DNA of 64,000 nt from Cladocopium goreaui (lineage: Eukaryota > Sar > Dinophyceae > Suessiales > Symbiodiniaceae), in NCBI GenBank assembly GCA_947184155.2, contig CAMXCT020002049.1, forward strand, positions 54,072 through 118,071, given 5' to 3'. Position numbers and translations under genes: made by a program. Each line of letters starts with the position of its first letter. The stretch's first letter is position 1. A model generated the notes under the pieces. It did not search any database. It saw only the letters and a program-made list of their open reading frames with translations, and had not been told where the DNA came from. Below, one piece after another: positions 8,792 through 60,214 of this stretch.

Positions 8792-9362
8792 TCAATCCTT
8801 CTTGGTGCAGTCCTTGCTGGGGTGTCCAGGGGAATTGCAAATAGTGCACCGATGGAGCCTGGTCACTTTCGCCAGACACCATTGACCCGGCGCCAATGAG
8901 CCACATGGCCCATTTCCGTTGTTCCAGCTGTAGCGCTTCTGCTGGACTTGGCCTTTGGTTCCTTTGTTTCCTCCTTTCCCTTTTCCGGAGTTTGAGCCTT
9001 TGCCTCCAGGGCTTTCTCCACCTCCGGATTGTCTCCTGTCTCTTCTTCTCTTGCGCCTTGATGGATCGGGTGAACTGTTTTCCTTCGTGCCCTCTGCGCT
9101 CTCCTTGATCGGTGTGATGGCTTTGATGCCCCCTTGTATAAAGTTCGAAGCCAACTGCTCCGCTGGAGTTCTCGGTGAACCTCTGCTTCCAGCAGCTATC
9201 CAGGCCAGGGCCGGGCCATGAACTTGAGTCTGCCAGAAGTTGTTGTCCTTCGGGAGGGCTCCAAAAACGTAGTCCCAAGCTGACCTCGCCACCTCGTCGG
9301 CGCTGTAAATGAGGTGCCTAACATGTTGGATAAAGTCTTGCCAGCTTCTCCATCTGCATTTC
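8792..9362 (-). pseudogene. Gag-like protein with CCHC zinc knuckle, 5' truncated
   Basis: The frame runs from the retrotransposon junction through W-R-S-W-Q-D-F-I-Q and A-R-S-A-W-D-Y-V-F-G to a lysine/glycine/serine-rich basic region. It ends with the zinc knuckle C-T-I-C-N-S-P-G-H-P-S-K-D-C and a stop at 8792. CCHC knuckles bind nucleic acid and are typical of gag proteins. The N-terminal part is missing because the 3' end of the neighbouring retrotransposon abuts at 9363, suggesting that element landed in or next to this one. Confidence 0.6.
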
Positions 9363-9371
9363 TTATTATTA
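9363..9371 (-). repeat. (TAA)3 tail of retrotransposon copy 1
   Basis: On the minus strand the element ends CCCATAATAATAA and is followed by unrelated DNA. Copy 2 ends with only two TAA units. A variable TAA tail instead of poly-A is known from I-type LINEs, where it forms during target-primed reverse transcription. Confidence 0.7.
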
Positions 9372-9436
9372 TGGGTTGAACGACTGGATGCCTCAAATAC
9401 CCGAAGGTACCGGACACCGCAGCCAACGGGACATGA

Positions 9437-12400
9437 TCAATTCATGTTTTCACGCACAGTGGCCCTGACCCGGGCCATGTGGTGAAGAACCGCTCTATCA
9501 TATGCATCACACCCACGTGTGGGCCAAGCAAGACGATTTTGCAATTCATCTTCAGGGACCTCAGGGCGGCCGGAAGACAACTGTTCGGCGGAGCAATGCC
9601 AGGAGAGATGTTCCCAGACAGGTGGGATTTGCTCACCGCAAAAGGGACATTGTTCCCTCACTTCGTGTCCACGCATCTTATCATAACATGCCGTGGAATG
9701 CGCAGAACCAAGCATTACGGCCCTCTGATGACTATCACACGTGAGAGAGAACAACTTGCGGGCATCGGAAACACGACTTTCCTCATACGGCACATCAAGC
9801 AAATAATGCCTATCACGGCGGTTCTGCTTTTTCCAAAGGGCAAATTGCACTCGGCGCCAACTTTCTCTCACCTTGTGCTCGGTGAGTTTCACAACAGCTT
9901 CATCTGGATTGGATAAATCGACATGACCCAAATCCTCATGTGCAAACATCCATGGACCGCGAAATTCCCAGTTCAGCTCTCGCATGCGTGCGCAAATGAA
10001 ACTCTGCCAGCCTCCAGGTCGTGGCATCCTTCGCCAAGGGGCACGAACTTGGCGCATGGTCCGAATGGAAGACATGGTGGCCCAAAACTCAGCATGATAC
10101 ATATGACCTACAAGCAGGTTGAAAAGAGGTCTCGAAGCGTTACCTTGCAGATAGGAAATGGCATGCCATGCCTTTCGAAGCGAAGGCAACTGTGACTGCG
10201 GCAATCGTTCAAACCAAGCGCCCCAGGTGGCGAGTGAAATGATTCTGGACCTGTACAAAGACATCCTGATATCGCGGGCAACCGGCAATTTCTGCAAACG
10301 GTGAGCGGCAAACACTGCTTCTTGCAAACGGTTTTCAAGAACAGGGGAAACAATAAGGTCACTTTCCTTAAAGTCAATACCTAAGACCCGAGTGGCCGGT
10401 CGGAGATACTCACCAAACCCTGCGTCATTGATCTCTTGCTTTTGTTGCGCAGTGCAGGCAACTAAACGCATTTTTTGAACGTTTTCATGGAGACCCAAAG
10501 TGGCACTCCAGCTGCGCCATCTATGGATGCCAGCAATTAAACGTGGAACATTAGGCGCGCTCAAAGCGCGATCATCAACGTATGCAACCTGACGCAAGTC
10601 TGGAATGGAAGACACATCATGAAGGGGCCTAATGAGCAACATGATAAGAGCCAGAGGTGCAAAGGCATCACCTTGCGGCATGGAGGTCTGGACATGCTCC
10701 GGCGTTGGGTGCACAGCTTTCCCCAAGCACAGCCATCGCACTTGATGACCCCATACAAACATCAAAATGTTAGCCCACTCATCTGGCAACCCTTGCAGTT
10801 GCATGTTTTCAATGGCCAAACCTGGGTGGACAAAATCAAAACATTTGGAGAAATCTAAAGAAGCAAGAACTTCCTGGTTTTCAAACGCTTCATTGAGTTG
10901 CCTCCATGCCGTGGCAACCCCCCGGGATTTCAAGCCTCCATGGCACTGCTCGGGGACCCGAGACGCAATCCATTCCTGAACCTGTGGGGTCCTCACATAA
11001 GATGAGGAGACCAACCGAAGAAAAATGCTTTCAACTGCAATAGGCCGCAAAGACCCTACAGTCCCACTGTCATCCTTTCTTAAATGAACCTGACGAACCT
11101 GCAGCCATGCCTGTGGGAATTGTTTTAACTGAGACCAATGCAAAACCAAATCACGGTAGTGATCCCAAGCAACAAGCGGGAAATGGCAAACTTCGCTGCC
11201 GGACCACCCGTCACATCCGGCTGCAGACCCCGAGGCTCTGAGAGCGGCCTGATGGATGAGGGCAGCATCTGGCATCCAATCAGTTTGGGGTCCAGCCAGG
11301 GCTTCCATTGTTCTAAATTCCGGGGGTAAGTGTGGAACGAGGTCATCACGTTTCCAAATACGCTGCCAAAAAGAACGAATACAATCAAGGGTTTGCGTGA
11401 TCGTGGCGCAAGAATCTTCGGAAACAGAGCGTGGTGTTGGAGGTTTGTGAGGCTTCATCCACCGGGTCACCTCTTTGCCCCCCTGGCGCATTCTGGTACG
11501 CCACTCGGTCAGCCTTTGGTTCTTGGACTTCCTGTTTTCAAGCGCAATGCGTTGTTCAAACACTTCAATAGCGTGGTTCCAAGACCCCCAAAGCTCATTG
11601 TATTCAGACGGCCAAGTCGACCATAATTTTTGCAAAAGCTTTTTGTCTCCCTGGGACTTGGCTAACTGTCGCTTCACTTCATAGAGACGACCAAGCACAT
11701 TAACAAGTTTTCTGGCAGGGAACGTATTCACCTGGGGGCGTTCAGCCTTGATCACACGAGGCAAATTCCCGCGCGCATGGCCTGGCCTAGGCACGGGCTG
11801 GCCACACAAGTGCAATGCTTCACGCATGCTCTTTTCAGCAAACTGGTGAAAATATGCCCAATCTTGGTCGGGATCCTGAGAAAAACATGGCACGTAAGCG
11901 GCCCATTGTTCTGCAAGCACGGCCCGCCATTGCTCAACAGGCACTTCCGGAGGACATTCATAGTTAGGCCGCCAAGCGAACCTCCACGTATCAGTCTGGA
12001 AAATGGGCAAGCGCAATCTAAGCCAAAACATCTTGTGATCAGGAATCTTACATTCACTGTAACGCGGGCAATCAGCAAAACCGTACCCGCCGCTGAGAAT
12101 TCCGTAATCAAGACATCTTTTACCTTCGAACCGGCTAAGCACCCATTGATCAGGATCCGTGACAGCCAGAACACTGCCATTCAAGAAAATGGATGCGGCG
12201 TTGTCATCAGGAGTTTCGTTCCAATCACCTACCCAAAGTGCAGGTATCTGCCTGCGTTGTGCTTCTTCAGTGACCGTAGCAACATATTCCAAAAATTGCA
12301 AACCATCAAGTTGGCTTGGCCGGCGCCAAACTGAGGAAAGTAGGCACGATTGAAGATCCAAAGTCATGACATACCCTTCATCGCAAGCCAGTGTGTCCCA

Positions 12401-15400
12401 GATGCCTCCTCTGAGATGCTCTCGCAATGCAACCAAAAGACCACCTCGGTAAAATTCACGTTTAAGTGTGCGAATAGGTTTGGCCGGAATGGTCCAACAC
12501 TTGTACCCAAGTTTCTGAAGCCTTTCAACATACTGGGAGCCTTGACGAGGCTCGAAGTCAGGCTCTTGAAGACATAAAACAGAAGGCAAATTACCCTCAT
12601 CCTGAAGCAAGTTTAGGCCCCTCCAAGCATTGCACGATCCACGGCAATTCCACGAGAGAATCCAGTGGTCAGGGTGGCCTGGGCCTGGATGGGGGTGTAT
12701 ATTCTCAGCAGTCAAATCGCGTTTCCATGACTTAGGCGGCCACTTCTTGCGCGACTTTTTCTTGGCGCTAGCCCAAGCATCATCAAGCTTCCTACGCTCA
12801 GTAGCACTCAAACGCCAAGCCTTGTGCAGCGCCTCTTGGCGCTCTTTGGGAGCCTGACGCCAGCATTTTTGGCGACCAGGCATGGCTAACCACTCGGCAC
12901 GAGCAGTCCGCCCGCCACAAGGACCTGCAGCTCTCACGGACTTCTCAGTTTTCCAGTAACCAGCACAAATGGAACAAGCATGCTGAGCCATGAAGAAAAT
13001 AACTTTTTTTCGACCCACCAGCCAATTTTTTCGTTCCAGTAGTACGTCTCTGCACTTGGGATAGGGAGTGTCCTTGCTCCTTGGCAAACTTGTTGAGTTG
13101 CACATACATCTGGCGATGCTTCAGCTTCCAAGGCAAAATGCTTCTGTGAGGTACATCAGGTGACACGCTTGCTCTCTTGCAAAGGCGAAGAATGGAGTCG
13201 CCTCTGGTGGCCCCTTTTGGGGCCTTGGCGCAGGAGCGCAAATGAGCAACGATTGATGCTTTCTGATGTGTCTTAGGCAAAATGGGGAGGGTGCCCATGC
13301 AAAAACCACAAGTCCAAGAAACAGCAGCATGAGTGGGCCCATACGATACGGCAGTAACCGGAGCCCTGTACTGATCAACAGCCTTTTTAAAATTGGTGGT
13401 TGGGGTACCACGATGCGTACGCCTAATGTGATCCGTACGTCTTTTTGAAACGATGCATGCTTTGTCAGTGAAAGAGACATTGCAAATGTGACATGTCCAC
13501 GTGATTTCCCGGTCGCGCCCAGTGGCAACAGACGCAGAAGCTGATGCGGCAGATGGGTTGGAACCACATGGCTCGGCTTCTGATTGCTCGGTCTTTTGAC
13601 GGCTCGGTTTGGCCGTTGATGCAAAATCAGTCAGACATGCACTCCGTTTGGCAGGGGTGCTTTGGGCAAAATCGGTCAACCTTGGGCTTGGCCTGCTGGA
13701 TTTGGGAGTTGCAAATTGTGAAAGGCAAATAGAGGCATTGTCGGCAGCCAAGCGTGCCTTCTTTGCGGCCCCGCGGTAACCCTTGGTGCCACCGTCTTCA
13801 GCATTCTGCCACAGGGCCTGAATATCTGCGTCTGAAGGAACAATAAGCTCATAATGTTCATCCTTGTACCAGAGACAGACAACATCCTTATCGCCATGAC
13901 TATTAAAAGCATGGACAACATTGTCCTTGGCATGCACAACAAGTACAGGTCGGCGCATGGCTTCGCCATATGCTTCGATTTCACAATATCCCGCCCAAGC
14001 TTTATCTTTTTCAAGGGCTTGTAAATAATCGTCAAACCCACCCTCCATGGGAATGTTGCTCGGGCTTAAACCGTCCCAGAAATCCTCGTATTTCTTGAAG
14101 TGTTTGGTCATGTAGGCAACAACAAATGCACGCACCTGCCTGTGGCTGCGGGACTTACCTGGGGTAGACTCCGCCTGAGCTAGACAGTAAAACAAGCAAT
14201 TCCCTTCCCCAGGGTTCGGAACTTTTTGAAGCCTCTCGGGCACTTTCATCCTCTTTTTGTCATGACCAGTTTTTTGCGGGCTGGTCAACATGGCCTGGTC
14301 TTTGCGTTTGGTGCCCTGGACATGCATGGGCTCATCCTCAACATCACTTGCATCTGGGACGCTAATCAGACTGACATCCATAGCTTCGTTACCGCGATCA
14401 TCCTTGGAGGGTAATGGAGGTGGACTACTTTTCGGTAAGGCAAGCGTGGTTGCAAAGTCAGGCACTTCAAGCTTGGATTTGTGCTTGCCTTTTCCTTTGC
14501 CTTTACCCTTACCTTTTTTGTGAAATGCATCTAGTGAAAAGAGCACATCATTTTCTGCTTTCAACGGCTGGACATTTCCTGGCGCACGTCGTTTGGACTG
14601 CTTAACTAAAAACAGATCTAATGGTGGCTCATTGCACGTCTCGTCCGCATCATAATGGATTTGCATTTGATCACGGTCATCATTTCTCATGCCTTTGAAA
14701 ACCCAAGCAGTGCCACCACGACGGCGTTGCTTTGCTAAAATATCAATTTCAGAGAAACCTGCTTCAACCAGAGTTTCTTCCACATTTTCAAAATCCCAAC
14801 CAAACGGCACTGTCTCAACCCGCCAAACACTAGAAGTGGGTTTGAGCCGCTCATCGTCTGGTTTGACCCTGAGAGCCAGCTGTACACGACCCCTAGCCAT
14901 GCCAAAAGGACCCGAATCATGAGCTACGCGACGAGCAAATGCAATTTGTTGTTCATTTTCCAATTTGTCCACCCAAAGCATGCGTGGAGGTGTTTCTGCG
15001 AGGCCATCCCATCTGGCAGGATCAAGAAACCAAACCTGACCTTTGTGTTCTGAGCCGCTCGCTTTAATCAACTGCAGGGCCCTGTCTTTGCCTTTGACGC
15101 GAGCAAATCCTCGAACCAGGTTTTCAGCCTCGAGTTTTTGGAATCCCCACGTGTCACCAAGGTGAAGCAGAAGATCCCTAGCGTTTGGGCCTAAATCAGA
15201 CAGCCACAAACGAAAAAAATTCCCAGGTCCCTGTGTGATATGATGGCGATTGTCACTGGCAATAAATCGCATGTCACAACTAATTCGAAAAACAAAAGAC
15301 TCTTCATGGCCGTGTTTCTGGACAACAGGCCGCCTGGCGCCTGTCAGCACGGATCCTGGAACCAATGTGGGTGCATTTGGCGAGCACCGCGCAATCCAAA

Positions 15401-17723
15401 CCAAGCGCTGGACCAATTTATCATCGGCATAACCAGCTGCACGTGTGTTCAAGGCTGTCCAACCATGATATCTCAATTTGCCAAGTTCTGGAGACATGTT
15501 AGGTGCAGCTTCAAGAACAACCGTGACATTGGTGCGACCAGCAGCATGAGAAATTTGGAGGGCTTCATTCCAATCATCCAGATTTTGTACTTGACACAGG
15601 AGAGCACCAGTGTCCCCACTGTCAAGAGCGTTGCACAGAGCTGTGGGGCCACGCAAAACAGTTTTGACGCCCCAGTCCTGGGCACGGGCTTTCCAGGATC
15701 TGTCGCGTTGCCATCGTGTTTTTGGCTTAGGAGCACCATCTACCAAATTTTCTGAACTTTTGAATCGTGTGCTTGGTTTCACTGGCGGGGCCGCCTCATG
15801 CGGCGGCAGATCTTTCTTTCTCTTGTTTGGTCGCAACATACCACGTTCAGTAACTTGAACCAATGTTTTCAACCTTTGGAGCAACCCTTGTGGTTTCTTT
15901 GCGGCTCGGGCAGTTAGCTTTTGCAAGGCTTGAATCAGCCCATAGCTGCCATCATGGTTCGCATCTCTCTGTTTGGAAGGTAGGCTTTTACCACTACTTT
16001 TGCCGGAGCCCTTACCCTTGCCTTTTTTGTTTGAGGCTCCGGAGCTAGAGGCCTGCAAAGTATCTTTCAACAAAATCTGCAAACCTTGCAGCACTTTCTG
16101 TTCCGGTGTCTCTGGACTGTTTCTACGACCTCCCCTGCGGAAGGAAGATCTGGGCCGGGAGGTTTGCGAATGCTCAGGCATGTTTTGACAGAATGGGCAA
16201 AACTGCGCACGTACGCAAAAGGACAGGAAACGGCCTACCCTATTAAACAAACTGACTCTTGGCTTTCGGATGCACTTACGATGCAATCGGCAGCGCTTTC
16301 GGCCAACTCTTCTGCACTTGAAGACTTTCTTTGGCCTTGCATTCAAATGGTGAATTGACAGCATTATCCTGAAAACAGCTAATGTCACCAAATCGATGAT
16401 GTCAACCCCTAAACCAATCAAAAGCAGATTCACAAAAGAAGGTTCAGTCAACAGCTTTCGGAAAAAGAAAGCGATGACCATGATCTTGCATGCCAGATGA
16501 CAGAACCACAGCAGCGCTTTCTGTGCATTCCATGTGAGGAACCGATGCATTGAAAACAACATTCGCATGAGCATGATGCCAAGGAGTGCTATTCCACAAC
16601 CTACTATTCTCTTCTTTCCGCACATCAGGACAAGGACCTTGTAGGCCCCGGCGAAAACGAAAGAGAGGCTGGTCGGATTGGACAAACAAGTATGCAAGCA
16701 AAATACGAGCGCGGCATTTCGCAAAAAGTGCTTCTGCATGTATGCAACAGAAGCATCATGTCTGGTTTGGAAACTCCAAATGACGGCTTGTCTGAAACAT
16801 CGCACACAAATTAAACTGAGGCCTAAACAAACAAGATCGGCACCTGTGAATTGAAACTGCTGGCACCACTGTGACATTGCAGAGACAACCTCAGCAATCT
16901 GAGGCCTTTGCGTGACATGGCAAAGAGATCGGTTGCAGAAAACCAACCCAGCAATCATCATTGTAAAAACGCTCCCCCATGAAACAAGCTTGCATGTCCT
17001 AGTGGAGCAAAATTGCCAAAGGGTCACGAAATAATAAGACATCATCGCCACAGCTGACAGCAAACCATGATTCCAAGTTGGTTTGAAATCCGTGTCAACC
17101 ATCTGCGCAACACAATTCACCGGTATTTCGAATCCAGGAGTTGCCTGAAAACCATCCACGGTGTGTCCAGAAACACACGAAGCATGAGTCTGCAAAATCA
17201 TGGCTTTGACGTGGAAGAATACAAAAGCAGCAAAAGAGCCCCAAAGGTCCCACAAATGCATCCAAGCAGTGGACCACATAGCCACGAAGCGCTGATAGAA
17301 CTTGAAGCTCCACGGTGACTCAAGCCAGCAAAAACAAGCACAACCTGTTAAAATCACCATAATCTTCAAGAGAGGCCACCACACTTTTCTCCCACACACA
17401 GTTTTCCTCACCAAGTTCACGATGTGGAAAATCCGGCTCCAACTTTGCATCATCCATTCAATCTTACCGGCTTTACTGCACAAACGTCTTGAAACCGCAG
17501 CCATACCCATACACACACCAGAAAAGATTGCAAGGACGTCAAAATTCAAATTCAATGCAACGAATTGATACCTCACGAAGTAGCTAGCACAAAAAAAAGG
17601 GACAGTGAGTAAGATGCAATACACCCGGCATTGCACAAACCATTGTCCATCGTCGTCTCTGTTCATCTCACCTCCGCAGCACAGGGCCAGCACCGCCAGC
17701 ATGGCTTTGAACAAGCCCGCCAT
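9437..17723 (-). pseudogene. Retrotransposon polyprotein, copy 1, frameshifted
   Basis: This is the same protein as in copy 2: membrane region, OTU-like protease, two zinc fingers, endonuclease, reverse transcriptase and zinc knuckle. I counted about 26 amino-acid differences over about 2,760 residues. A run of seven A on the coding strand (13004-13010), against six in copy 2, shifts the frame between the second zinc finger and the endonuclease. The S-D-H motif of the endonuclease is changed to P-D-H (codon 12041-12043), which should weaken catalysis. I start the frame at ATG 17723-17721; the open frame extends further upstream only with a TTG codon. The reverse-transcriptase motifs are unchanged. 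Confidence 0.85.
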
Positions 17724-17803
17724 GGCTTTAAAAGTGCGCCCGAAATGCCTATTTGCTTGGCTACAAACCTGGGCGGCTTGAGCCAATCACCTTGAGCCAA
17801 TCA

Positions 17804-17813: not shown

Positions 17814-17884
17814 TTATTATGGGTTGAACGACTGGATGCCTCAAATACCCGAAGGTACCGGACACCGCAGCCAACGGGACATGA

Positions 17885-20800
17885 TCAATTCATGTTTTCA
17901 CGCACAGTGGCCCTGACCCGGGCCATGTGGTGAAGAACCGCTCTATCATAGGCATCACACCCACGTGTGGGCCAAGCAAGACGATTTTGCAATTCATCTT
18001 CAGGGACCTCAGGGCGGCCGGAAGACAACTGTTCGGCGGAGCAATGCCAGGAGAGATGTTCCCAGACAGGTGGGATTTGCTCACCGCAAAAGGGACATTG
18101 TTCCCTCACTTCGTGTCCACGCATCTTATCATAACATGCCGTGGAATGCGCAGAACCAAGCATTACGGCCCTCTGATGACTATCACACGTGAGAGAGAAC
18201 AACTTGCGGGCATCGGAAACACGACTTTCCTCATACGGCACATCAAGCAAATAATGCCTATCACGGCGGTTCTGCTTTTTCCAAAGGGCAAATTGCACTC
18301 GGCGCCAACTTTCTCTCACCTTGTGCTCGGTGAGTTTCACAACAGCTTCATCTGGATTGGATAAATCGACATGACCCAAATCCTCATGTGCAAACATCCA
18401 TGGACCGCGAAATTCCCAGTTCAGCTCTCGCATGCGTGCGCAAATGAAACTCTGCCAGCCTCCAGGTCGTGGCATCCTTCGCCAAAGGGCACGAACTTGG
18501 CGCATGGTCCGAATGGAAGACATGGTGGCCCAAAACTCAGCATGATACATATGACCTACAAGCAAGTTGAAAAGAGGTCTCGAAGCGTTACCTTGCAGAT
18601 AGGAAATGGCATGCCATGCCTTTCGAAGCGAAGGCAACTGTGACTGCGGCAATCGTTCAAACCAAGCGCCCCAGGTGGCGAGTGAAATGATTCTGGACCT
18701 GTACAAAGACATCCTGATATCGCGGGCAACCGGCAATTTCTGCAAACGGTGAGCGGCAAACACTGCTTCTTGCAAACGGTTTTCAAGAACAGGGGAAACA
18801 ATAAGGTCACTTTCCTTAAAGTCAATACCTAAGACCCGAGTGGCCGGTCGGAGATACTCCCCAAACCCTGCGTCATTGATCTCTTGCTTTTGTTGCGCAG
18901 TGCAGGCAACTAAACGCATTTTTTGAACGTTTTCATGGAGACCCAAAGTGGCACTCCAGCTGCGCCATCTATGGATGCCAGCAATTAAACGTGGAACATT
19001 AGGCGCGCTCAAAGCGCGATCATCAACGTATGCAACCTGACGCAAGTCTGGAATGGAAGACACATCATGAAGGGGCCTAATGAGCAACATGATAAGAGCC
19101 AGAGGTGCAAAGGCATCACCTTGCGGCATGGAGGTCTGGACATGCTCCGGCGTTGGGTGCACAGCTTTCCCCAAGCACAGCCATCGCACTTGATGACCCC
19201 ATACAAACATCAAAATGTTAGCCCACTCATCTGGCAACCCTTGCAGTTGCATGTTTTCAATGGCCAAACCTGGGTGGACAAAATCAAAACATTTGGAGAA
19301 ATCTAAAGAAGCAAGAACTTCCTGGCTTTCAAACGCTTCATTGAGTTGCCTCCATGCCGTGGCAACCCCCCGGGATTTCAAGCCTCCATGGCACTGCTCG
19401 GGGACCCGAGACGCAATCCATTCCTGAACCTGTGGGGTCCTCACATAAGATGAGGAGACCAACCGAAGAAAAATGCTTTCAACTGCAATAGGCCGCAAAG
19501 ACCCTACAGTCCCACCGTCATCCTTTCTTAAATGAACCTGACGAACCTGCAGCCATGCCTGTGGGAATTGTTTTAACTGAGACCAATGCAAAACCAAATC
19601 ACGGTAGTGATCCCAAGCAACAAGCGGGAAATGGCAAACTTCGCTGCCGGACCAACCGTCACATCCGGCTGCAGACCCCGAGGCTCTGAGAGCGGCCTGA
19701 TGGATGAGGGCAGCATCTGGCATCCAATCAGTTTGGGGTCCAGCCAGGGCTTCCATTGTTCTAAATTCCGGGGGTAAGTGTGGAACGAGGTCATCACGTT
19801 TCCAAATACGCTGCCAAAAAGAACGAATACAATCAAGGGTTTGCGTGATCGTGGCGCAAGAATCTTCGGAAACAGAGCGTGGTGTTGGAGGTTTGTGAGG
19901 CTTCATCCACCGGGTCACCTCTTTGCCCCCCTGGCGCATTCTGGTACGCCACTCGGTCAGCCTTTGGTTCTTGGACTTCCTGTTTTCAAGCGCAATGCGT
20001 TGTTCAAACACTTCAATAGCGTGGTTCCAAGACCCCCAAAGCTCATTGTATTCAGACGGCCAAGTCGACCATAATTTTTGCAAAAGCTTTTTGTCTCCCT
20101 GGGACTTGGCTAACTGTCGCTTCACTTCATAGAGACGACCAAGCACATTAACAAGTTTTCTGGCAGGGAACGTATTCACCTGGGGGCGTTCAGCCTTGAT
20201 CACACGAGGCAAATTCCCGCGCGCATGGCCTGGCCTAGGCACGGGCTGGCCACACAAGTGCAATGCTTCACGCATGCTCTTTTCAGCAAACTGGTGAAAA
20301 TATTCCCAATCTTGGTCGGGATCCTGAGAAAAACATGGCACGTAAGCGGCCCATTGTTCTGCAAGCACGGCCCGCCATTGCTCAACAGGCACTTCCGGAG
20401 GACATTCATAGTTAGGCCGCCAAGCGAACCTCCACGTATCAGTCTGGAAAATGGGCAAGCGCAATCTAAGCCAAAACATCTTGTGATCAGAAATCTTACA
20501 TTCACTGTAACGCGGGCAATCAGCAAAACCGTACCCGCCGCTGAGAATTCCGTAATCAAGACATCTTTTACCTTCGAACCGGCTAGGCACCCATTGATCA
20601 GGATCCGTGACAGCCAGAACACTGCCATTCAAGAAAATGGATGCGGCGTTGTCATCAGGAGTTTCGTTCCAATCACCTACCCAAAGTGCAGGTATCTGCC
20701 TGCGTTGTGCTTCTTCAGTGACCGTAGCAACATATTCCAAAAATTGCAAACCATCAAGTTGGCTTGGCCGGCGCCAAACTGAGGAAAGTAGGCACGATTG

Positions 20801-23800
20801 AAGATCCAAAGTCATGACATACCCTTCATCGCAAGCCAGTGTGTCCCAGATGCCTCCTCTGAGATGCTCTCGCAATGCAACCAAAAGACCACCTCGGTAA
20901 AATTCACGTTTAAGTGTGCGAATAGGTTTGGCCGGAATGGTCCAACTCTTGTACCCAAGTTTCTGAAGCCTTTCAACATACTGGGAGCCTTGACGAGGCT
21001 CGAAGTCAGGCTCTTGAAGACATAAAACAGAAGGCAAATTACCCTCATCCTGAAGCAAGTTTAGGCCCCTCCAAGCATTGCACGATCCACGGCAATTCCA
21101 CGAGAGAATCCAGTGGTCAGGATGGCCTGGGCCTGGATGGGGGTGTATATTCTCAGCAGTCAAATCGCGTTTCCATGACTTAGGCGGCCACTTCTTGCGC
21201 GACTTTTTCTTGGCGCTAGCCCAAGCATCATCAAGCTTCCTACGCTCAGTAGCACTCAAACGCCAAGCCTTGTGCAGCGCCTCTTGGCGCTCTTTGAGAG
21301 CCTGACGCCAGCATTTTTGGCGACCAGGCATGGCTAACCACTCGGCACGAGCAGTCCGCCCGCCACAAGGACCTGCAGCTCTCACGGACTTCTCAGTTTT
21401 CCAGTAACCAGCACAAATGGAACAAGCATGCTGAGCCATGAAGAAAATAACTTTTTTCGACCCACCAGCCAATTTTTTCATTCCAGTAGTACGTCTCTGC
21501 ACTTGGGATAGGGAGTGTCCTTGCTCCTTGGCAAACTTGTTGAGTTGCACATACATCTGGCGATGCTTCAGCTTCCAAGGCAAAATGCTTCTGTGAGGTA
21601 CATCAGATGACACGCTTGCTCTCTTGCAAAGGCGAAGAATGGAGTCGCCTCTGGTGGCCCCTTTTGGGGCCTTGGCGCAGGAGCGCAAATGAGCAACGAT
21701 TGATGCTTTCTGATGTGTCTTAGGCAAAATGGGGAGGGTGCCCATGCAAAAACCACAAGTCCAAGAAACAGCAGCATGAGTGGGCCCATACGATACGGCA
21801 GTAACCGGAGCCCTGTACTGATCAACAGCCTTTTTAAAATTGGTGGTTGGGGTACCACGATGCGTACGCCTAATGTGATCCGTACGTCTTTTTGAAACGA
21901 TGCATGCTTTGTCAGTGAAAGAGACGTTGCAAATGTGACATGTCCACGTGATTTCCCGGTCGCGCCCAGTGGCAACAGACGCAGAAGCTGATGCGGCAGA
22001 TGGGTTGGAACCACATGGCTCGGCTTCTGATTGCTCGGTCTTTTGACGGCTCGGTTTGGCCGTTGATGCAAAATCAGTCAGACATGCACTCCGTTTGGCA
22101 GGGGTGCTCTGGGCAAAATCGGTCAACCTTGGGCTTGGCCTGCTGGATTTGGGAGTTGCAAATTGTGAAAGGCAAATAGAGGCATTGTCGGCAGCCAAGC
22201 GTGCCTTCTTTGCGGCCCCGCGGTAACCCTTGGTGCCACCGTCTTCAGCATTCTGCCACAGGGCCTGAATATCTGCGTCTGAAGGAACAATAAGCTCATA
22301 ATGTTCATCCTTGTACCAGAGACAGACAACATCCTTATCGCCATGACTATTAAAAGCATGGACAACATTGTCCTTGGCATGCACAACAAGTACAGGTCGG
22401 CGCATGGCTTCGCCATATGCTTCGATTTCACAATATCCCGCCCAAGCTTTATCTTTTTCAAGGGCTTGTAAATAATCGTCAAACCCACCCTCCATGGGAA
22501 TGTTGCTCGGGCTTAAACCGTCCCAGAAATCCTCGTATTTCTTGAAGTGTTTGGTCATGTAGGCAACAACAAATGCACGCACCTGCCTGTGGCTGCGGGA
22601 CTTACCTGGGGTAGACTCCGCCTGAGCTAGACAGTAAAACAAGCAATTCCCTTCCCCAGGGTTCGGAACTTTTTGAAGCCTCTCGGGCACTTTCATCCTC
22701 TTTTTGTCATGACCAGTTTTTTGCGGGCTGGTCAACATGGCCTGGTCTTTGCATTTGGTGCCCTGGACATGCATGGGCTCATCCTCAACATCACTTGCAT
22801 CTGGGACGCTAATCAGACTGACATCCATAGCTTCGTTACCGCGATCATCCTTGGAGGGTAATGGAGGTGGACTACTTTTCGGTAAGGCAAGCGTGGTTGC
22901 AAAGTCAGGCACTTCAAGCTTGGATTTGTACTTGCCTTTTCCTTTGCCTTTACCCTTACCTTTTTTGTGAAATGCATCTAGTGAAAAGAGCACATCATTT
23001 TCTGCTTTCAACGGCTGGACATTTCCTGGCGCACGTCGTTTGGACTGCTTAACTAAAAACAGATCTAATGGTGGCTCATTGCACGTCTCGTCCGCATCAT
23101 AATGGATTTGCATTTGATCACGGTCATCATTTCTCATGCCTTTGAAAACCCAAGCAGTGCCACCACGACGGCGTTGCTTTGCTAAAATATCAATTTCAGA
23201 GAAACCTGCTTCAACCAGAGTTTCTTCCACATTTTCAAAATCCCAACCAAACGGCACTGTCTCAACCCGCCAAACACTAGAAGTGGGTTTGAGCCGCTCA
23301 TCGTCTGGTTTGACCCTGAGAGCCAGCTGTACACGACCCCTAGCCATGCCAAAAGGACCCGAATCATGAGCTACGCGACGAGCAAATGCAATTTGTTGTT
23401 CATTTTCCAGTTTGTCCACCCAAAGCATGCGTGGAGGTGTTTCTGCGAGGCCATCCCATCTGGCAGGATCAAGAAACCAAACCTGACCTTTGTGTTCTGA
23501 GCCGCTCGCTTTAATCAACTGCAGGGCCCTGTCTTTGCCTTTGACGCGAGCAAATCCTCGAACCAGGTTTTCAGCCTCGAGTTTTTGGAATCCCCACGTG
23601 TCACCAAGGTGAAGCAGAAGATCCCTAGCGTTTGGGCCTAAATCAGACAGCCACAAACGAAAAAATTTCCCAGGTCCCTGTGTGATATGATGGCGATTGT
23701 CACTGGCAATAAATCGCATGTCACAACTAATTCGAAAAACAAAAGACTGTTCATGGCCGTGTTTCTGGACAACAGGCCGCCTGGCGCCTGTCAGCACGGA

Positions 23801-26170
23801 TCCTGGAACCAATGTGGGTGCATTTGGCGAGCACCGCGCAATCCAAACCAAGCGCTGGACCAATTTATCATCGGCATAACCAGCTGCACGTGTGTTCAAG
23901 GCTGTCCAACCATGATATCTCAATTTGCCATGTTCTGGAGACATGTTAGGTGCAGCTTCAAGAACAACCGTGACATTGGTGCGACCAGCAGCATGAGAAA
24001 TTTGGAGGGCTTCATTCCAATCATCCAGATTTTGTACTTGACACAGGAGAGCACCGGTGTCCCCACTGTCAAGAGCGTTGCACAGAGCTGTGGGGCCACG
24101 CAAAACAGTTTTGACGCCCCAGTCCTGGGCACGGGCTTTCCAGGATCTGTCGCGTTGCCATCGTGTTTTTGGCTTAGGAGCACCATCTACCAAATTTTCT
24201 GAACTTTTGAATCGTGTGCTTGGTTTCACTGGCGGGACCGCCTCATGCGGCGGCAGATCTTTCTTTCTCTTGTTTGGTCGCAACATACCACGTTCAGTAA
24301 CTTGAACCAATGTTTTCAACCTTTGGAGCAACCCTTGTGGTTTCTTTGCGGCTCGGGCAGTTAGCTTTTGCAAGGCTTGAATCAGCCCATAGCTGCCATC
24401 ATGGTTCGCATCTCTCTGTTTGGAAGGTAGGCTTTTACCACTACTTTTGCCGGAGCCCTTACCCTTGCCTTTTTTGTTTGAGGCTCCGGAGCTAGAGGCC
24501 TGCAAAGTATCTTTCAACAAAATCTGCAAACCTTGCAGCAGTTTCTGTTCCGGTGTCTCTGGACTGTTTCTACGACCTCCCCCGCGGAAGGAAGATCTGG
24601 GCGGGGAGGCTTGCGAATGCTCAGGCATGTTTTGACAGAATGGGCAAAACTGCGCACGTACGCAAAAGGACAGGAAACGGCCTACCCTATTAAACAAACT
24701 GACTCTTGGCTTTCGGATGCACTTACGATGCAATCGGCAGCGCTTTCGGCCAACTCTTCTGCACTTGAAGACTTTCTTTGGCCTTGCATTCAAATGGTGA
24801 AGTGACAGCATTATCCTGAAAACAGCTAATGTCACCAAATCGATGATGTCAACCCCTAAACCAATCAAAAGCAGATTCACAAAAGAAGGTTCAGTCAACA
24901 GCTTTCGGAAAAAGAAAGCGATGACCATGATCTTGCATGCCAGATGACAGAACCACAGCAGCGCTTTCTGTGCATTCCATGTGAGGAACCGATGCATTGA
25001 AAACAACATTCGCATGAGCATGATGCCAAGGAGTGCTATTCCACAACCTACTATTCTCTTCTTTCCGCACATCAGGACAAGGACCTTGTAGGCCCCGGCG
25101 AAAACGAAAGAGAGGCTGGTCGGATTGGACAAACAAGTATGCAAGCAAAATACGACCGCGGCATTTCGCAAAAAGTGCTTCTGCATGTATGCAACAGAAG
25201 CATCATGTCTGGTTTGGAAACTCCAAATGACGGCTTGTCTGAAACATCGCACACAAATTAAACTGAGGCCTAAACAAACAAGATCGGCACCTGTGAATTG
25301 AAACTGCTGGCACCACTGTGACACTGCAGAGACAACCTCAGCAATCTGAGGCCTTTGCGTGACATGGCAAAGAGATCGGTTGCAGAAAACCAACCCAGAA
25401 ATCATCATTGTAAAAACGCTCCCCCATGAAACAAGCTTGCATGTCCTAGTGGAGCAAAATTGCCAAAGGGTCACGAAATAATAAGACATCATCGCCACAG
25501 CTGACAGCAAACCATGATTCCAAGTTGGTTTGAAATCCGTGTCAACCATCTGCGCAACGCAATTCACCGGTATTTCGAATCCAGGAGTTGCCTGAAAACC
25601 ATCCACGGTGTGTCCAGAAACACACGAAGCATGAGTCTGCAAAATCATGGCTTTGACGTGGAAGAATACAAAAGCAGCAAAAGAGCCCCAAAGGTCCCAC
25701 AAATGCATCCAAGCAGTGGACCACATAGCCACGAAGCGCCGATAGAACTTGAAGCTCCACGGTGACTCAAGCCAGCAAAAACAAGCACAACCTGTTAAAA
25801 TCACCATAATCTTCAAGAGAGGCCACCACACTTTTCTCCCACACACAGTTTTCCTCACCAAGTTCACGATGTGGAAAATCCGGCTCCAACTTTGCATCAT
25901 CCATTCAATCTTACCGGCTTTACTGCACAAACGTCTTGAAACCGCAGCCATACCCATACACACACCAGAAAAGATTGCAAGGACGTCAAGATTCAAATTC
26001 AATGCAACGAATTGATACCTCACGAAGTAGCTAGCACAAAAAAAAGGGACAGTGAGTAAGATGCAATACACCCGGCATTGCACAAACCATTGTCCATCGT
26101 CGTCTCTGTTCATCTCACCTCCGCAGCACAGGGCCAGCACCGCCAGCATGGCTTTGAACAAGCCCGCCAT
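17885..26170 (-). CDS. Retrotransposon polyprotein: membrane region, OTU, zinc fingers, endonuclease, RT
   Basis: The protein has 2,761 residues from ATG 26170; a longer open frame would need a TTG start. Residues 1-520 carry about a dozen hydrophobic segments, followed by a basic cysteine-bearing stretch and lysine/glycine-rich linkers. An OTU-like cysteine protease spans about 1165-1300 (G-N-C-L-F with Cys1176; E-H-Y-E with His1290). Zinc fingers start at about 1411 (C-H-I-C...H-x5-H) and 1472 (C-G-F-C). The APE endonuclease (about 1685-1900) shows S-W-N-C, L-Q-E-P, G-D-W-N and S-D-H at 1894-1896. The reverse transcriptase (about 2120-2470) shows L-D-F-S-K-C-F-D-F near 2290, P-Q-G-D-A-F-A-P and Y-V-D-D at 2381. 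A knuckle C-P-F-C...H-L-S-W-H-C starts at 2692. OTU proteins usually remove ubiquitin; the role here is unknown. Confidence 0.9.
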   Translation of the reverse strand: MAGLFKAMLAVLALCCGGEMNRDDDGQWFVQCRVYCILLTVPFFCASYFVRYQFVALNLNLDVLAIFSGVCMGMAAVSRRLCSKAGKIEWMMQSWSRIFHIVNLVRKTVCGRKVWWPLLKIMVILTGCACFCWLESPWSFKFYRRFVAMWSTAWMHLWDLWGSFAAFVFFHVKAMILQTHASCVSGHTVDGFQATPGFEIPVNCVAQMVDTDFKPTWNHGLLSAVAMMSYYFVTLWQFCSTRTCKLVSWGSVFTMMISGLVFCNRSLCHVTQRPQIAEVVSAVSQWCQQFQFTGADLVCLGLSLICVRCFRQAVIWSFQTRHDASVAYMQKHFLRNAAVVFCLHTCLSNPTSLSFVFAGAYKVLVLMCGKKRIVGCGIALLGIMLMRMLFSMHRFLTWNAQKALLWFCHLACKIMVIAFFFRKLLTEPSFVNLLLIGLGVDIIDLVTLAVFRIMLSLHHLNARPKKVFKCRRVGRKRCRLHRKCIRKPRVSLFNRVGRFLSFCVRAQFCPFCQNMPEHSQASPPRSSFRGGGRRNSPETPEQKLLQGLQILLKDTLQASSSGASNKKGKGKGSGKSSGKSLPSKQRDANHDGSYGLIQALQKLTARAAKKPQGLLQRLKTLVQVTERGMLRPNKRKKDLPPHEAVPPVKPSTRFKSSENLVDGAPKPKTRWQRDRSWKARAQDWGVKTVLRGPTALCNALDSGDTGALLCQVQNLDDWNEALQISHAAGRTNVTVVLEAAPNMSPEHGKLRYHGWTALNTRAAGYADDKLVQRLVWIARCSPNAPTLVPGSVLTGARRPVVQKHGHEQSFVFRISCDMRFIASDNRHHITQGPGKFFRLWLSDLGPNARDLLLHLGDTWGFQKLEAENLVRGFARVKGKDRALQLIKASGSEHKGQVWFLDPARWDGLAETPPRMLWVDKLENEQQIAFARRVAHDSGPFGMARGRVQLALRVKPDDERLKPTSSVWRVETVPFGWDFENVEETLVEAGFSEIDILAKQRRRGGTAWVFKGMRNDDRDQMQIHYDADETCNEPPLDLFLVKQSKRRAPGNVQPLKAENDVLFSLDAFHKKGKGKGKGKGKYKSKLEVPDFATTLALPKSSPPPLPSKDDRGNEAMDVSLISVPDASDVEDEPMHVQGTKCKDQAMLTSPQKTGHDKKRMKVPERLQKVPNPGEGNCLFYCLAQAESTPGKSRSHRQVRAFVVAYMTKHFKKYEDFWDGLSPSNIPMEGGFDDYLQALEKDKAWAGYCEIEAYGEAMRRPVLVVHAKDNVVHAFNSHGDKDVVCLWYKDEHYELIVPSDADIQALWQNAEDGGTKGYRGAAKKARLAADNASICLSQFATPKSSRPSPRLTDFAQSTPAKRSACLTDFASTAKPSRQKTEQSEAEPCGSNPSAASASASVATGRDREITWTCHICNVSFTDKACIVSKRRTDHIRRTHRGTPTTNFKKAVDQYRAPVTAVSYGPTHAAVSWTCGFCMGTLPILPKTHQKASIVAHLRSCAKAPKGATRGDSILRLCKRASVSSDVPHRSILPWKLKHRQMYVQLNKFAKEQGHSLSQVQRRTTGMKKLAGGSKKVIFFMAQHACSICAGYWKTEKSVRAAGPCGGRTARAEWLAMPGRQKCWRQALKERQEALHKAWRLSATERRKLDDAWASAKKKSRKKWPPKSWKRDLTAENIHPHPGPGHPDHWILSWNCRGSCNAWRGLNLLQDEGNLPSVLCLQEPDFEPRQGSQYVERLQKLGYKSWTIPAKPIRTLKREFYRGGLLVALREHLRGGIWDTLACDEGYVMTLDLQSCLLSSVWRRPSQLDGLQFLEYVATVTEEAQRRQIPALWVGDWNETPDDNAASIFLNGSVLAVTDPDQWVPSRFEGKRCLDYGILSGGYGFADCPRYSECKISDHKMFWLRLRLPIFQTDTWRFAWRPNYECPPEVPVEQWRAVLAEQWAAYVPCFSQDPDQDWEYFHQFAEKSMREALHLCGQPVPRPGHARGNLPRVIKAERPQVNTFPARKLVNVLGRLYEVKRQLAKSQGDKKLLQKLWSTWPSEYNELWGSWNHAIEVFEQRIALENRKSKNQRLTEWRTRMRQGGKEVTRWMKPHKPPTPRSVSEDSCATITQTLDCIRSFWQRIWKRDDLVPHLPPEFRTMEALAGPQTDWMPDAALIHQAALRASGSAAGCDGWSGSEVCHFPLVAWDHYRDLVLHWSQLKQFPQAWLQVRQVHLRKDDGGTVGSLRPIAVESIFLRLVSSSYVRTPQVQEWIASRVPEQCHGGLKSRGVATAWRQLNEAFESQEVLASLDFSKCFDFVHPGLAIENMQLQGLPDEWANILMFVWGHQVRWLCLGKAVHPTPEHVQTSMPQGDAFAPLALIMLLIRPLHDVSSIPDLRQVAYVDDRALSAPNVPRLIAGIHRWRSWSATLGLHENVQKMRLVACTAQQKQEINDAGFGEYLRPATRVLGIDFKESDLIVSPVLENRLQEAVFAAHRLQKLPVARDIRMSLYRSRIISLATWGAWFERLPQSQLPSLRKAWHAISYLQGNASRPLFNLLVGHMYHAEFWATMSSIRTMRQVRALWRRMPRPGGWQSFICARMRELNWEFRGPWMFAHEDLGHVDLSNPDEAVVKLTEHKVRESWRRVQFALWKKQNRRDRHYLLDVPYEESRVSDARKLFSLTCDSHQRAVMLGSAHSTACYDKMRGHEVREQCPFCGEQIPPVWEHLSWHCSAEQLSSGRPEVPEDELQNRLAWPTRGCDAYDRAVLHHMARVRATVRENMN

Positions 26171-26223
26171 GGCTTTAAAAGTGCGCCCGAAATGCCTATT
26201 TGCTTGGCTACAAACCTGGGCGG

Positions 26224-26288
26224 CTTGAGCCAATCACCTTGAGCCAATCACCTTGAGCCAAAATGGCTTGAGCCAAAATGGCTACGGT
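26224..26288 (-). other. Dinoflagellate spliced leader with nested relict leaders
   Basis: Reading the minus strand from 26288, a complete 22-base dinoSL (ACCGTAGCC...GGCTCAAG, 26267-26288) is followed without a gap by CCATTTTGGCTCAAG (26252-26266). Two copies of GTGATTGGCTCAAG follow (26238-26251 and 26224-26237). The 15-base unit is what remains when a new leader is trans-spliced onto the AG inside an older leader (CCGTAG), a pattern known from retroposed dinoflagellate genes. The GTGATTGG units look like still older, mutated leaders, but that is inference. The array is the 5' end of retrotransposon copy 2. Confidence 0.9.
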
Positions 26289-27078
26289 GCAGGTTTTGAT
26301 TGTCGAGTTGCTTCAGCTCCTTCAGTTTCTCTTCCTGATGCTGAGTAAGCTTTGACAGCCTCTGCAGACTCCTATCATAGCTGTCCAGAAACTCTGACTG
26401 GTCCACGTGAATCTCTGATCTAGCATGAGGATCCTGTGCCAAAGCTTGCTTCATGTTCAAATTCAACTCACCACTGAGAACTTGATCCCGCAGCATTTGA
26501 GCGATCTCAATCTTGTCGGTCTTCACATTGAAAGCTATCGATGGGGTACCATGTGGCAGTCTTGTTTGATAGGGCAATTCTGCCTGAATCCCCTTGGGAA
26601 TGGCACTCTGCAAGGCCTTTTTCAAAAAATCATGGCGACCGGTGTCGAGCAAATTGTGAATTGCTTCTGTTGCGTGACGAATGTGCCTCGACACAAAGAT
26701 TTGTTGTGTCTCTTTGCACTGAACAATCCACTTTAATTCTGCCGACCTTGTCACTACATCATCGTCAAAACTTGGGACAGTCATCAACAACACGCCTGTT
26801 CTCCACCTGTTGCCATGCTTGGCATCAACCATGGAATGCACCGGGAACTCTTTCTCCAAAAACCTGGTTACGTCAATCTCCTCATAGTCCCACGCCGAGC
26901 CATGCTTAGCCCGCATGTGTTCTACATATGCGATCTCACATTTCTGGCTTCCGCCGCAGCCAACGCCATCCCATAAGTCTTTGTACTTGAGCTCTCGAAG
27001 CATTAATTTTCCTTGGCCCTTTTGGCCAGGAAAAAACACAACTCTGAGAGTCTGCTTCTTCTCAACGGCTTCATGCAC
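26289..27078 (-). pseudogene. TPR-helicase gene, middle exon cut by retrotransposon
   Basis: The exon begins after an AG acceptor (27079-27080) with V-H-E-A-V-E-K-K-Q and continues through V-V-F-F-P-G, W-D-G-V-G-C-G-G-S-Q-K and W-D-Y-E-E-I-D-V-T. All of these are shared with the paralogue at 50.3-52.7 kb. It ends in K-L-K-E-L-K-Q-L-D-N-Q-N-L, where retrotransposon copy 2 starts. In the paralogue this point lies only a few residues before Walker A (A-P-A-G-A-G-K-S), so the whole helicase domain is lost here. Beyond the junction the frame runs into the spliced leader and stops at 26248. Confidence 0.8.
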
Positions 27079-28548
27079 CTTCAAGGTTAGTGTGAGGCCA
27101 TGAACAGTGATTGTCCTAAAACAGCCTGTTGTTCTTCCCCGCAATTGAAATGTGTTTTCTTATGAATGAAGAACCCTGCTGCAACAAGCAGTCTTCGTAG
27201 CTGGTGTGCAACCCATACCCTGGGTATCCCTGGGTGCTGTTTTACGCTGTGTGGAAGAATGTAAAAGATCTCGTGGCGCCAAAGGTTTTGAATAATTACT
27301 TTAAGGGTTTGATGGAACAAGTTTCTGGAGTAGAAATGTAGAAGTGACAGTAAAAATGCATTGTATCGTTGGCCAATTTAGGTACAAACTGTCTAGGTCC
27401 AAAGTGCCTTATTAACATTGTTTGACCTCCGAAAGGTTTCTGGCGAAAAACTCGATGGCAGTTTCTATCGCGGGTTGTTGGGGTCCGGAACTAAGGCCAG
27501 TCGATTTGGCGCAGCGCCAAGAAAAGGCTGCCCTAAGACCCTACGCATCATCTCTCTTTAAGAATGAGAATATATACCAGACAGGGTGCAAATTGGCCAT
27601 CGGAACATGGTAGCGGGTTCTGACTGTGACCTCTGCTATTTTGCAGCGGCGAGAGGCTCAAGAGGTAGTTTTTTGCGCCATCTAGTCTTACCTGCTGAAT
27701 ACATGTCAACACTAGTGGTGCTATGTCACTTTGTGAAGCTGTCGTGATTGCACTAACCTTGCACCATGCTAATCTGAAAAGAGTAAACTGAAACGATGCA
27801 AAGGATGGCAAAGGTTTGGTTTCGTAGGCCAAGCATTATTTCATGTAAATGCGTTCAACATAATTGACGAAGTGGTTTGCACAGTTGTGTATTGGGTGAG
27901 TCAGCCTGAAAGCTTAATTTTCACAATGTTAAACCATGTTATAGACACATATCATATCATATTTCAGATTGATACAGATTGAATGTATAGTCCAGCTCCG
28001 GATTTTGTGGAAGTTGTTCCAACAGCTGGATTTTACCGGCCAGCTCAGGACATGCAGAAACATTCGCAACACACCGCAGTACACTATCACACCGCCCGTC
28101 GCGTTGGTGCTTTGCGATAACCCCAGCAACTGAACAGACGCTTTTGCGGCATTACAACGCTCTTGCGCTAGATTGCACAATAGAACAGCTTGACAAACAC
28201 AGCGATTTCATATGAAGATCACCTGTATACCGTATACCGTATACCATAATATGATATCCCACGGCAAATCATAATTGAGGCGCAACATGTCTAGGAGAAG
28301 ATACACATAGTGCAATGATGCGCCATCCGGATGCAAATCACAATGCATCACGCTCACATCAACATGTTTTTTTCAATGTGTTTGTTGGACCTAGCTTTCA
28401 ACCTCAACATTCAAAGCTGAAGACACACGCACACACACACAAGAAGATATGGAGAGAGAGAAAGAGAGAGAAAGAAAGAAAGAAAGAAAAAAAATAGCAC
28501 TCCGACTCAAATAGTCGCACATGCTCATGTTTTGCCACTGGATTGCGC
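27079..28548 (-). other. Intron with GC donor in the TPR-helicase gene
   Basis: Comparison with the intron-free paralogue places this 1,470-bp intron between K-E-K and V-H-E-A. The donor is AAG|GCGCAA (28549/28548) and the acceptor TTGAAG|GTG (27079/27078), in phase 0. GC donors are common in dinoflagellates. The intron contains a CA/GA microsatellite near its 5' end and no recognisable gene. Confidence 0.65.
28419..28494. repeat. CA and GA microsatellite
   Basis: A short run of CA is followed by GAGA and GAAA units, then a run of A, visible directly in the sequence inside the inferred intron. Confidence 0.8.
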
Positions 28549-37547: not shown

Positions 37548-37632
37548 TCACATGAAACACCAAAGTAAAAACATCAGGCGGATTCGCAAACATCGCTCAG
37601 CTATTCCATGTGCCAGGCCTTCCGGTTCATGC
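37548..37632 (-). pseudogene. Ankyrin-gene last exon, block A
   Basis: After a CCCAAG acceptor the exon encodes H-E-P-E-G-L-A-H-G-I-A-E-R-C-L-R-I-R-L-M-F-L and stops at 37548. It is the counterpart of 57042-57126 and has the same length, 85 bases. In this copy the two preceding exons each carry one extra base, so they no longer feed this exon in the original frame. Confidence 0.55.
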
Positions 37633-37863
37633 CTTGGGCGGCGAGAAGGTGCACAGCGCATTTGCACTTCAAAAATGGTTGCGCCGTTGCAGGGTTAAAC
37701 CTGAAAATACAGGAAAATACGGAGATGTTGATAAGTCTAAGCTCATCATGAACGAACACATGACAAACTCCTTGGTCCTTGTGGTACTTCGGCGCATACC
37801 CATCTGTGACATTTCAGAACCTTTAGGCCATGTGTAGCTGGGGACAATCAAAGAACATCCAAC

Positions 37864-37954
37864 CTGTTCTTGATGTTGTCTCCGGAGACCATGGAACTGG
37901 AAAGGGTCAGCGGGGTTAACGCAGAGAATCCCATGCATGGCCACCAAATCAAGT
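37864..37954 (-). pseudogene. Ankyrin-gene penultimate exon, block A, +1 frameshift
   Basis: The exon encodes L-D-L-V-A-M-H-G-I-L-C-V-N-P-A-D-P-F-Q-F and is 91 bases long, against 90 in block B. The extra base is in CCATGGTCTCCGG (block B has CCATGGTCCCGG), which breaks the frame before D-N-I-K-N. Acceptor TTTGCAG and donor AACAG|GTTGG are kept. Confidence 0.6.
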
Positions 37955-38214
37955 CTGCAAACTCAATCGGATTCGTGGTTGATCTATGTTGATCTATGCT
38001 CACTTATTGGCAGGACTTGCGAGGATGATTTGGCACCGTGTACAGACTTCAGATTTGTCCAACATTCGCAGCATAAACATCCCCTGGTCCGGACAAATAT
38101 CACTATCTCACGCCACTTGAAAACGGCTTTCATCCCCCACAAGCACCAGAAGTTTCACCATGTTATATCCGTTGAAGTTGACATCCTTGGGCCACTGCAG
38201 TGCTTGAGGCCCAC

Positions 38215-38300
38215 CCGTGCAGCCAAGAGGCGCCTGTCCATCAGCAAGTTCACGAGTTCCGTCTGGCGCTCCTCTCTCACCATATCCACGGGCGCGTTGC
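38215..38300 (-). pseudogene. Ankyrin-repeat exon, block A, +1 frameshift
   Basis: The exon starts after a GCTCAG acceptor and encodes N-A-P-V-D-M-V-R-E-E-R-Q-T-E-L-V-N-L-L-M, the second half of an ankyrin repeat. It is 86 bases long, against 85 in blocks B and C, because of one extra base after the L-M-D codons. The exon upstream, degenerate, ends at 38769 with a GC donor (GATG|GCCAGG). Confidence 0.6.
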
Positions 38301-57041: not shown

Positions 57042-57126
57042 TCACCTTGTGCTGCTTGGTAAAAACATCAAGCGGATTCGCAAATATCGCTCAGCTACTC
57101 CATGTGCCAGGCCTTCCGGTTCATGC
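57042..57126 (-). CDS. Ankyrin-gene last exon, block B
   Basis: After a CCCAAG acceptor (AG 57127-57128) the exon encodes H-E-P-E-G-L-A-H-G-V-A-E-R-Y-L-R-I-R-L-M, then F-L-P-S-S-T-R and a stop at 57042. The phases of this and the two upstream exons fit each other exactly, unlike in block A. The tail is not a recognised domain. Confidence 0.6.
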
Positions 57127-60206: not shown

Positions 60207-60214
60207 CTATAAGT
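60207..60214. repeat. Target-site duplication, left (CTATAAGT)
   Basis: These eight bases are repeated directly after the element at 61294-61301. The empty site in block A (near 40,830) has a single CTCTAAGT. Confidence 0.8.

Follow-up and report, generated by a model that had tools for sequence, protein, structure and literature searches.

A LINE family of Cladocopium goreaui with spliced-leader units at its 5' end and insertions at Walker A-coding DNA

The leader stack and the element that follows it

The DNA analysed is a window of 64,000 nucleotides from the dinoflagellate Cladocopium goreaui (assembly GCA_947184155.2, contig CAMXCT020002049.1). Positions 26224 to 26288 of the window hold, on the minus strand, a stack of dinoflagellate spliced leaders (dinoSL) at the 5' end of a long interspersed nuclear element (LINE), here termed copy A. 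Most other copies of this element in the genome (1.17 Gb in 6,202 contigs were searched) carry leader units at their own 5' ends, and most of the 3' ends read are followed by a Walker A-coding motif.

The 5'-most unit of the stack is the 22-base dinoSL ACCGTAGCCATTTTGGCTCAAG without a mismatch. No match with up to three mismatches was found in 100 dinucleotide shuffles of the window, and the full leader occurs 158 times in the genome while the reversed pattern used as a control does not occur. It is followed without gaps by CCATTTTGGCTCAAG and then by two GTGATTGGCTCAAG units, Table 1. A preliminary description of the window had reported this series of abutting leaders before a retrotransposon frame, and its sequences and positions are exact. 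The second unit is a 5' leader relict cut after the internal AG, as in dinoSL-tagged retrocopies. The exact 14-mer GTGATTGGCTCAAG has 14 occurrences in the genome, 7 of them within this LINE family (reversed control 1). In the copies L012 and L025 the host flank reads CTGCACCTAACTG at the place where the dinoSL of copy A begins. Bases 1–3 of the dinoSL (ACC) are thus compatible with host DNA too, and therefore ACC may be host and the leader proper of copy A may begin at GTAG. The AG of CCGCCCAG, with which the element's own 5' untranslated region (UTR) starts in copy A, may be an alternative acceptor; 7 of the 18 copies described below have the leader directly on GTTTG (GTTG in L025). A possible older relict, GTAGCCA, inside the 5' UTR is not claimed, its score being reached by 4% of shuffles.

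The first ATG of the long frame of copy A lies 53 nt beyond the leaders. Pfam recognised OTU, Exo_endo_phos and RVT_1 domains in this frame, and the best solved relatives of the reverse transcriptase (RT) domain were 8gh6 (E 1e-05) and 8ibw (E 4e-05), both named reverse transcriptase-like protein. Membership among the LINEs is indicated by the RT and endonuclease in one frame and by target-site duplications together with a constant 3' tail, which was of the ATAATAA type in all 28 3' ends read (ATAATTA in L055). As to the Dualen/RandI type, which combines an apurinic-type with a restriction-like endonuclease, the apurinic-type endonuclease was the sole type in the Pfam scan, which a divergent restriction-like domain would escape.

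Table 1. Coordinates of the leader stack, the two copies of the element and the associated host features in the window.
Feature	Positions	Strand	Basis or remark
dinoSL, 5'-most unit of the stack	26267..26288	-	exact match; first three bases also host-compatible
relict leader CCATTTTGGCTCAAG, truncated directly behind the leader's internal AG (CCGTAG/CC)	26252..26266	-	perfect double unit in 10/18 copies
degenerate leader unit GTGATTGGCTCAAG	26238..26251	-	sequence
second, identical GTGATTGGCTCAAG unit	26224..26237	-	sequence
CCGCCCAG, start of the element's own 5' UTR in copy A	26216..26223	-	sequence of 5' junctions
copy A frame, 2,782 aa stop to stop; first ATG 26170	17885..26233	-	open reading frame, Pfam
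OTU-like protease domain	22307..22660	-	Pfam PF02338, E 2.3e-10
endonuclease domain, apurinic type	20483..21106	-	Pfam PF03372, E 1.6e-06; weak APE1 matches, E 0.04 and up
reverse transcriptase domain	18890..19525	-	Pfam PF00078, E 3.1e-10; best solved relatives 8gh6, 8ibw
3' tail ATAATAA of copy A, then target piece CTGCCCCTGCTG	17814..17820	-	sequence
leader stack of copy B, ATTGGCTCAAG + GTGATTGGCTCAAG	17777..17801	-	shorter than the copy A stack
copy B, head-to-tail second copy, frame broken	9363..17801	-	99.56% identity to copy A
target motif 3' of copy B, GAAATGCAGATGGAGAAGCT GGCAAGAC	9335..9362	-	3' flank reading
host frame upstream, interrupted by copy A immediately ahead of its Walker A position	26289..27159	-	open frame without a Pfam match
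unoccupied Walker A (APAGAGKSF) of another gene resembling the host family	51392..51418	-	532-codon open stretch

The frame upstream of the stack belongs to a host gene and not to the element because this sequence also flanks L012 and L025. Pfam gave no match for the window's own piece of this gene, and the label helicase-like for the host family is taken from the related host gene at L011 (DEAD, E 1.6e-07). L012 and L025 allow the empty site to be reconstructed, and the 5' junction of copy A falls where that site would be nicked, without a duplication. Copy B is 99.56% identical to copy A across 8,438 bp. Since it joins the target of copy A on its 5' side to the flank of L015 on its 3' side, the tandem of copies A and B in the window is a recombinant or an assembly join. 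The second host-like gene, whose Walker A is empty, occupies about 50.6–52.2 kb of the window. Apart from the element, 37213–43537 and 56713–64000 form a large direct duplication, 89–98% identical.

Leader units on other copies

The genome was searched with the first 400 bases past the leaders of copy A; counts from genome searches are lower bounds. All 18 copies of the element 5' end that were found (2 in the window and 16 elsewhere) were taken. The other 17 bodies are 99.1–99.7% identical to copy A, L018 being compared across 2.7 kb only, and the whole frame is retained in 3 of the 18. At least one GCTCAAG unit is present at the 5' junction in 16 copies, L015 and L021 having no leader. These represent 14 of the 16 distinct junctions, with L016/L017 and L022/L023 each counted once. 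The composition of the stack differs among the leader-bearing copies, with up to four units in some and a 7–8-nt remnant in L025.

Target duplications of 14–16 bp were found in six of the 16 copies scored (L011, L012, L015, L016, L021 and L025); L018 and L026 were left out of the scoring, for which the 5' host ends were set by eye. All four copies having both a leader and a duplication (L011, L012, L016 and L025) have the leader inside the duplication, with a few bases common to the two in L016 and L025. This argues that the leader is part of the element and not of the flanking DNA. L012, with three units, and L025, with one remnant, occupy the same position in copies of a single host gene; these different stacks at one host position therefore mark separate insertions. 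The earlier proposal that the leader travels with the element is consequently upheld. It would have failed if other copies never carried leader units or if the leader belonged to the upstream host gene, and neither is the case.

In 10 copies (8 distinct junctions) a perfect 15-nt unit underlies another perfect unit, and the two meet precisely behind the leader's internal AG. These are 10 of the 29 perfect double units found genome-wide (reversed-pattern control 0). Near-perfect units are on top and degenerate units such as GTGATTGGCTCAAG and CCGTTGCTCAAG below, the bottom unit being, as judged by eye, mostly the most degenerate. The bases under the leaders fall into three classes, namely GTGATTGG units with CCGCCCAG (7 copies), CCGCCCAG or CCACCCAG directly (2 copies) and GTTTG or GTTG directly (7 copies). 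The tree pairs copy B with L019 as sisters (ultrafast bootstrap 95%), yet the two have different bases beneath their top leaders. At least five changes of class are needed on the 16-copy tree, from which L015 and L021 are absent as they have no stack class. The mean for shuffles is 6.9 changes and 7.6% of shuffles are as low, a weak clustering. Most nodes of the tree are weak. Dating of the stacks from the tree was rejected, since the copies differ too little and, on visual inspection, look mosaic. Local duplication seems to have produced the doubled GTGATTGG unit and the repeated GCTCAAG of L018. Units have been added but also replaced, truncated, duplicated or lost, and therefore the height of a stack is at most a rough trace of rounds of retrotransposition.

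The stack of L018 (on C155) ends in repeated GCTCAAG, for which splicing at a non-AG site or slippage may be responsible. In L026 (on C3666) the 3' end of a full-length copy runs into a second copy starting inside the element, and a further 3' end lies 5.2 kb on, at a Walker A site.

Outside the family, perfect double leaders account for 19 of the 29 matches and lie at 17 places, all of which were read. One of them, L061/L073 (L073 being on C1147), is a second OTU-like/RT element with a broken frame and a four-unit leader stack at its 5' end, its OTU score being below the Pfam cut-off. L059/L074 has an N-terminus similar to that of this OTU-like/RT element; no frame of more than 219 aa and no RT-like frame was seen in 7 kb. 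A stretch of C5979 tried as the 5' end of a divergent relative gave no match to the element. Stacks of two to four leader units also occur in L057, L062 and L063, which form a family of proline-rich repeats. In L067 (on C3514) a double leader stands shortly before a frame resembling, by eye, the first open reading frame (ORF1) of a LINE, for which Pfam gave only a sub-threshold coiled-coil match. Related RTs recur on one strand on C4103, C1588, C492, C1830, C1035 and C4966, mostly 7–11 kb apart (8,877 bp on C1830, C1035 and C4966), which suggests head-to-tail arrays of other LINE families.

The target of insertion

The search for 3' ends gave 31 rows representing 30 ends, of which 28 had flanks that were read and two abut another copy. 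Copy A and L026, which adjoin another copy and have no 3' host flank, and L018, whose 3' end is lost, are not among the 28. The sequence GGNAAR was found 20–27 bp beyond the first seven bases of the tail in 26 of the 28 flanks, and at exactly 20 bp in 17 of these; distances above 20 bp accompany a longer tail. By chance about 4% of flanks would be expected to have it (range 15–29 bp, with GGNAAR at a rate of 0.0028 per position in the window). The motif after the tail is approximately GAGCWGGNAAGAC, or about GAGCWGGNAAGACNTT; read in frame, it specifies GAGKT, the Walker A loop.

To exclude shared ancestry, the 14 flanks sorted by eye as belonging to the helicase-like family were set aside. 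The remaining 12 distinct sites gave 20.6 bits summed against 2.6 for random segments. When the anchor columns were removed from the 11 of them that have GGNAAR, thus excluding L046/L048, 13.9 bits remained against a control mean of 2.7 and maximum of 7.1. For the control, GGNAAR sites of the window were drawn 2,000 times; the pool contained the window's occupied site as well as the empty Walker A. Since some sites have in-frame stops beside the motif, it seems to be the DNA and not the protein coding that is recognised. The AGAGKTF-coding sequence GCNGGNGCNGGNAARACNTTY has 39 sites in the genome, of which 14 are occupied, all 14 on the same strand; its reversed control gave none.

Independent insertions at one motif and spacing, as in 26 of the 28 flanks, are the mark of a site-specific LINE. 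Judged by these sites, the element is site-specific and inserts in one orientation, in sense with the Walker A-coding motif. The insertions are in Walker A-coding DNA and not inside spliced-leader exons.

Interpretation and comparison with known systems

The leaders, their stacks, the duplications, the tail and the target motif with its spacing and orientation are direct observations. The leader travelling with the element supports trans-splicing of the element RNA and its copying nearly to the 5' end, as this is the outcome expected from such a course. It is highly probable, given what can be read from sequence, that a young, site-specific dinoflagellate LINE with OTU, apurinic-type endonuclease and RT domains inserts in sense orientation at the Walker A-coding motif and that its read-through RNA is trans-spliced at the leader it carries. 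The motif would be recognised by the element's own protein and insertion would probably be by target-primed reverse transcription. The element would land in sense inside ATPase genes, where host read-through transcription would yield its RNA, which would be cut out and capped by spliced-leader trans-splicing. With cDNA synthesis then continuing nearly to the 5' end of the leader, each complete new copy would carry the leader, including its acceptor AG (CCGTAG/CC, also CAAG), at which the next transcript could be spliced so that units are stacked or replaced.

Several observations do not sit easily with this model. Nine of the 16 scored copies are without a duplication and L024 has one of merely 7 bp. 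Flanks are shared by copy B and L015 (3'), by L016 and L017 (5') and by L022 and L023 (both), so that duplication, recombination or chimeric assembly must be involved. The 5' breakpoint of L022/L023 is farther upstream in the host-like gene (LKVVFF), consistent with a target deletion. Top units also show single-base departures from the leader (L013, L018). Six guessed 5' regions of related elements, whose true 5' ends are not mapped, lacked the GGCTCAAG core; their few three-edit leader matches were not counted. Two of the 28 3' flanks (L046 and L048, the same flank) have no GG in the motif. The looser pattern GGAGCWGGNAARACNTTY has 71 places (reversed control 3) and just 9 are occupied; many of the unoccupied places are copies of one sequence, GGAGCAGGTAAAACTTTC.

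The preliminary description had gone further and taken the stack for a counter, every cycle adding exactly one unit so that unit number equals rounds. Near-perfect units above degenerate ones and heights of up to four units would suit such a counter, but the different bases of the sisters B and L019, the three classes of base with at least five changes, the 5' truncation and the duplicated GTGATTGG and GCTCAAG units make it very unlikely. The units could be counted, giving the differing stacks above, but the comparison with copy age that had been suggested could not succeed as a divergence of less than 1% is too small. A jump of the RT at the end of the cDNA onto free spliced-leader (SL) RNA or onto the leader of another mRNA, the element RNA not being trans-spliced, might explain the odd junctions in L011, which has GCAAATAGGCATTT in common with the element UTR, and in L018. 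This is less probable still, given that a unit boundary exactly after the internal AG in 10 copies is predicted by splicing and not by jumping.

Lower again in probability is a repeat array owned by the element, descended from one ancient leader and expanded by slippage. The GTGATTGGCTCAAG pair of copy A and the GCTCAAG repeats of L018 resemble such an array, but GTAG, from the 5' part of the leader, occurs in top units only, with one or two perfect 15-nt units below, and stacks differ at the same target in L012 and L025. The target preference itself could be illusory if one duplicated helicase-like family had been hit and the copies were segmental duplicates. Half of the flanks do come from that family, as sorted by eye, and some flanks are shared; however, 11 of the 12 distinct other sites have GGNAAR at nearly the same spacing, some with in-frame stops adjacent, and this explanation ranks below the repeat array. 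Least probable of all is that the element targets spliced-leader sequence, as SLACS, CRE and NeSL do, the leader being flanking target DNA. The leader does stand directly at the 5' junction in most copies, but this idea was rejected on the duplications that enclose it in four copies and on the 3' flanks, which hold the Walker A motif and not the remainder of a leader.

More tentatively, the two traits of the LINE may form one strategy, in which sense landing in expressed multicopy ATPase genes and a leader with a built-in acceptor AG would make both promoter and host splice site unnecessary. The leader would then be a portable, self-renewing device for forming 5' ends that replaces the internal promoter of other LINEs. 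The results indicate that a LINE can multiply by way of trans-spliced mRNA, rebuilding its 5' end from the host leader, and bear on the survival of retroelements that have no known promoter in genomes whose genes form long one-way arrays. The element is also a candidate for the reverse transcriptase behind dinoflagellate retrogenes, and the occupation of 14 of the 39 exact Walker A-coding sites makes the target class directly testable.

Slamovits and Keeling in 2008 reportedly described dinoflagellate retrogenes with dinoSL relicts. Such relicts are cut after the internal AG and stacked with older units more degenerate (PMC3229502, PMC6050394), as in the present element, where lower units are likewise more degenerate. 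Stacked relicts on retrogenes also appear in PMC12014239 and PMC7245778, and the number of stacked units has already been equated with the number of rounds for retrogenes (PMC6050394). Those are described as retroposed genes, whereas here leaders mark the 5' end of a LINE family itself, in independent insertions. LTR elements were thought the likelier mediators of retroposition (PMC6050394), and Symbiodiniaceae LINEs were described as highly divergent remnants (PMC8045281), in contrast to the young family found here. Leader relicts on retrogenes were thus already known. A literature search of titles and abstract openings, with subscription papers and preprints outside its scope, returned no report of a LINE that carries a leader or of one with a P-loop target.

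Homing endonucleases and inteins in P-loops also exploit DNA encoding a conserved ATP-binding motif, by self-splicing or homing; this LINE, unlike them, interrupts the gene. SLACS, CZAR and CRE are elements that target the SL exon. Trypanosomatid L1Tc/ingi (Pr77) is likewise a LINE whose host transcribes polycistronically and uses SL trans-splicing, and its RNA must be freed from cotranscripts; L1Tc has an internal promoter, a ribozyme and unspliced transcripts, whereas the present element carries spliced leaders (PMC8190864). It shares an apurinic-type endonuclease and site specificity with the Tx1 and R1 clades, and the part seen of the target list of site-specific LINEs names no DNA encoding a protein motif, which is the target here (PMC4640811). 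Like NeSL (PMC4640811), it is a site-specific LINE linked to spliced leaders. For elements targeting the SL exon the leader is the target, whereas this LINE carries the leader as cargo and inserts at Walker A-coding DNA.
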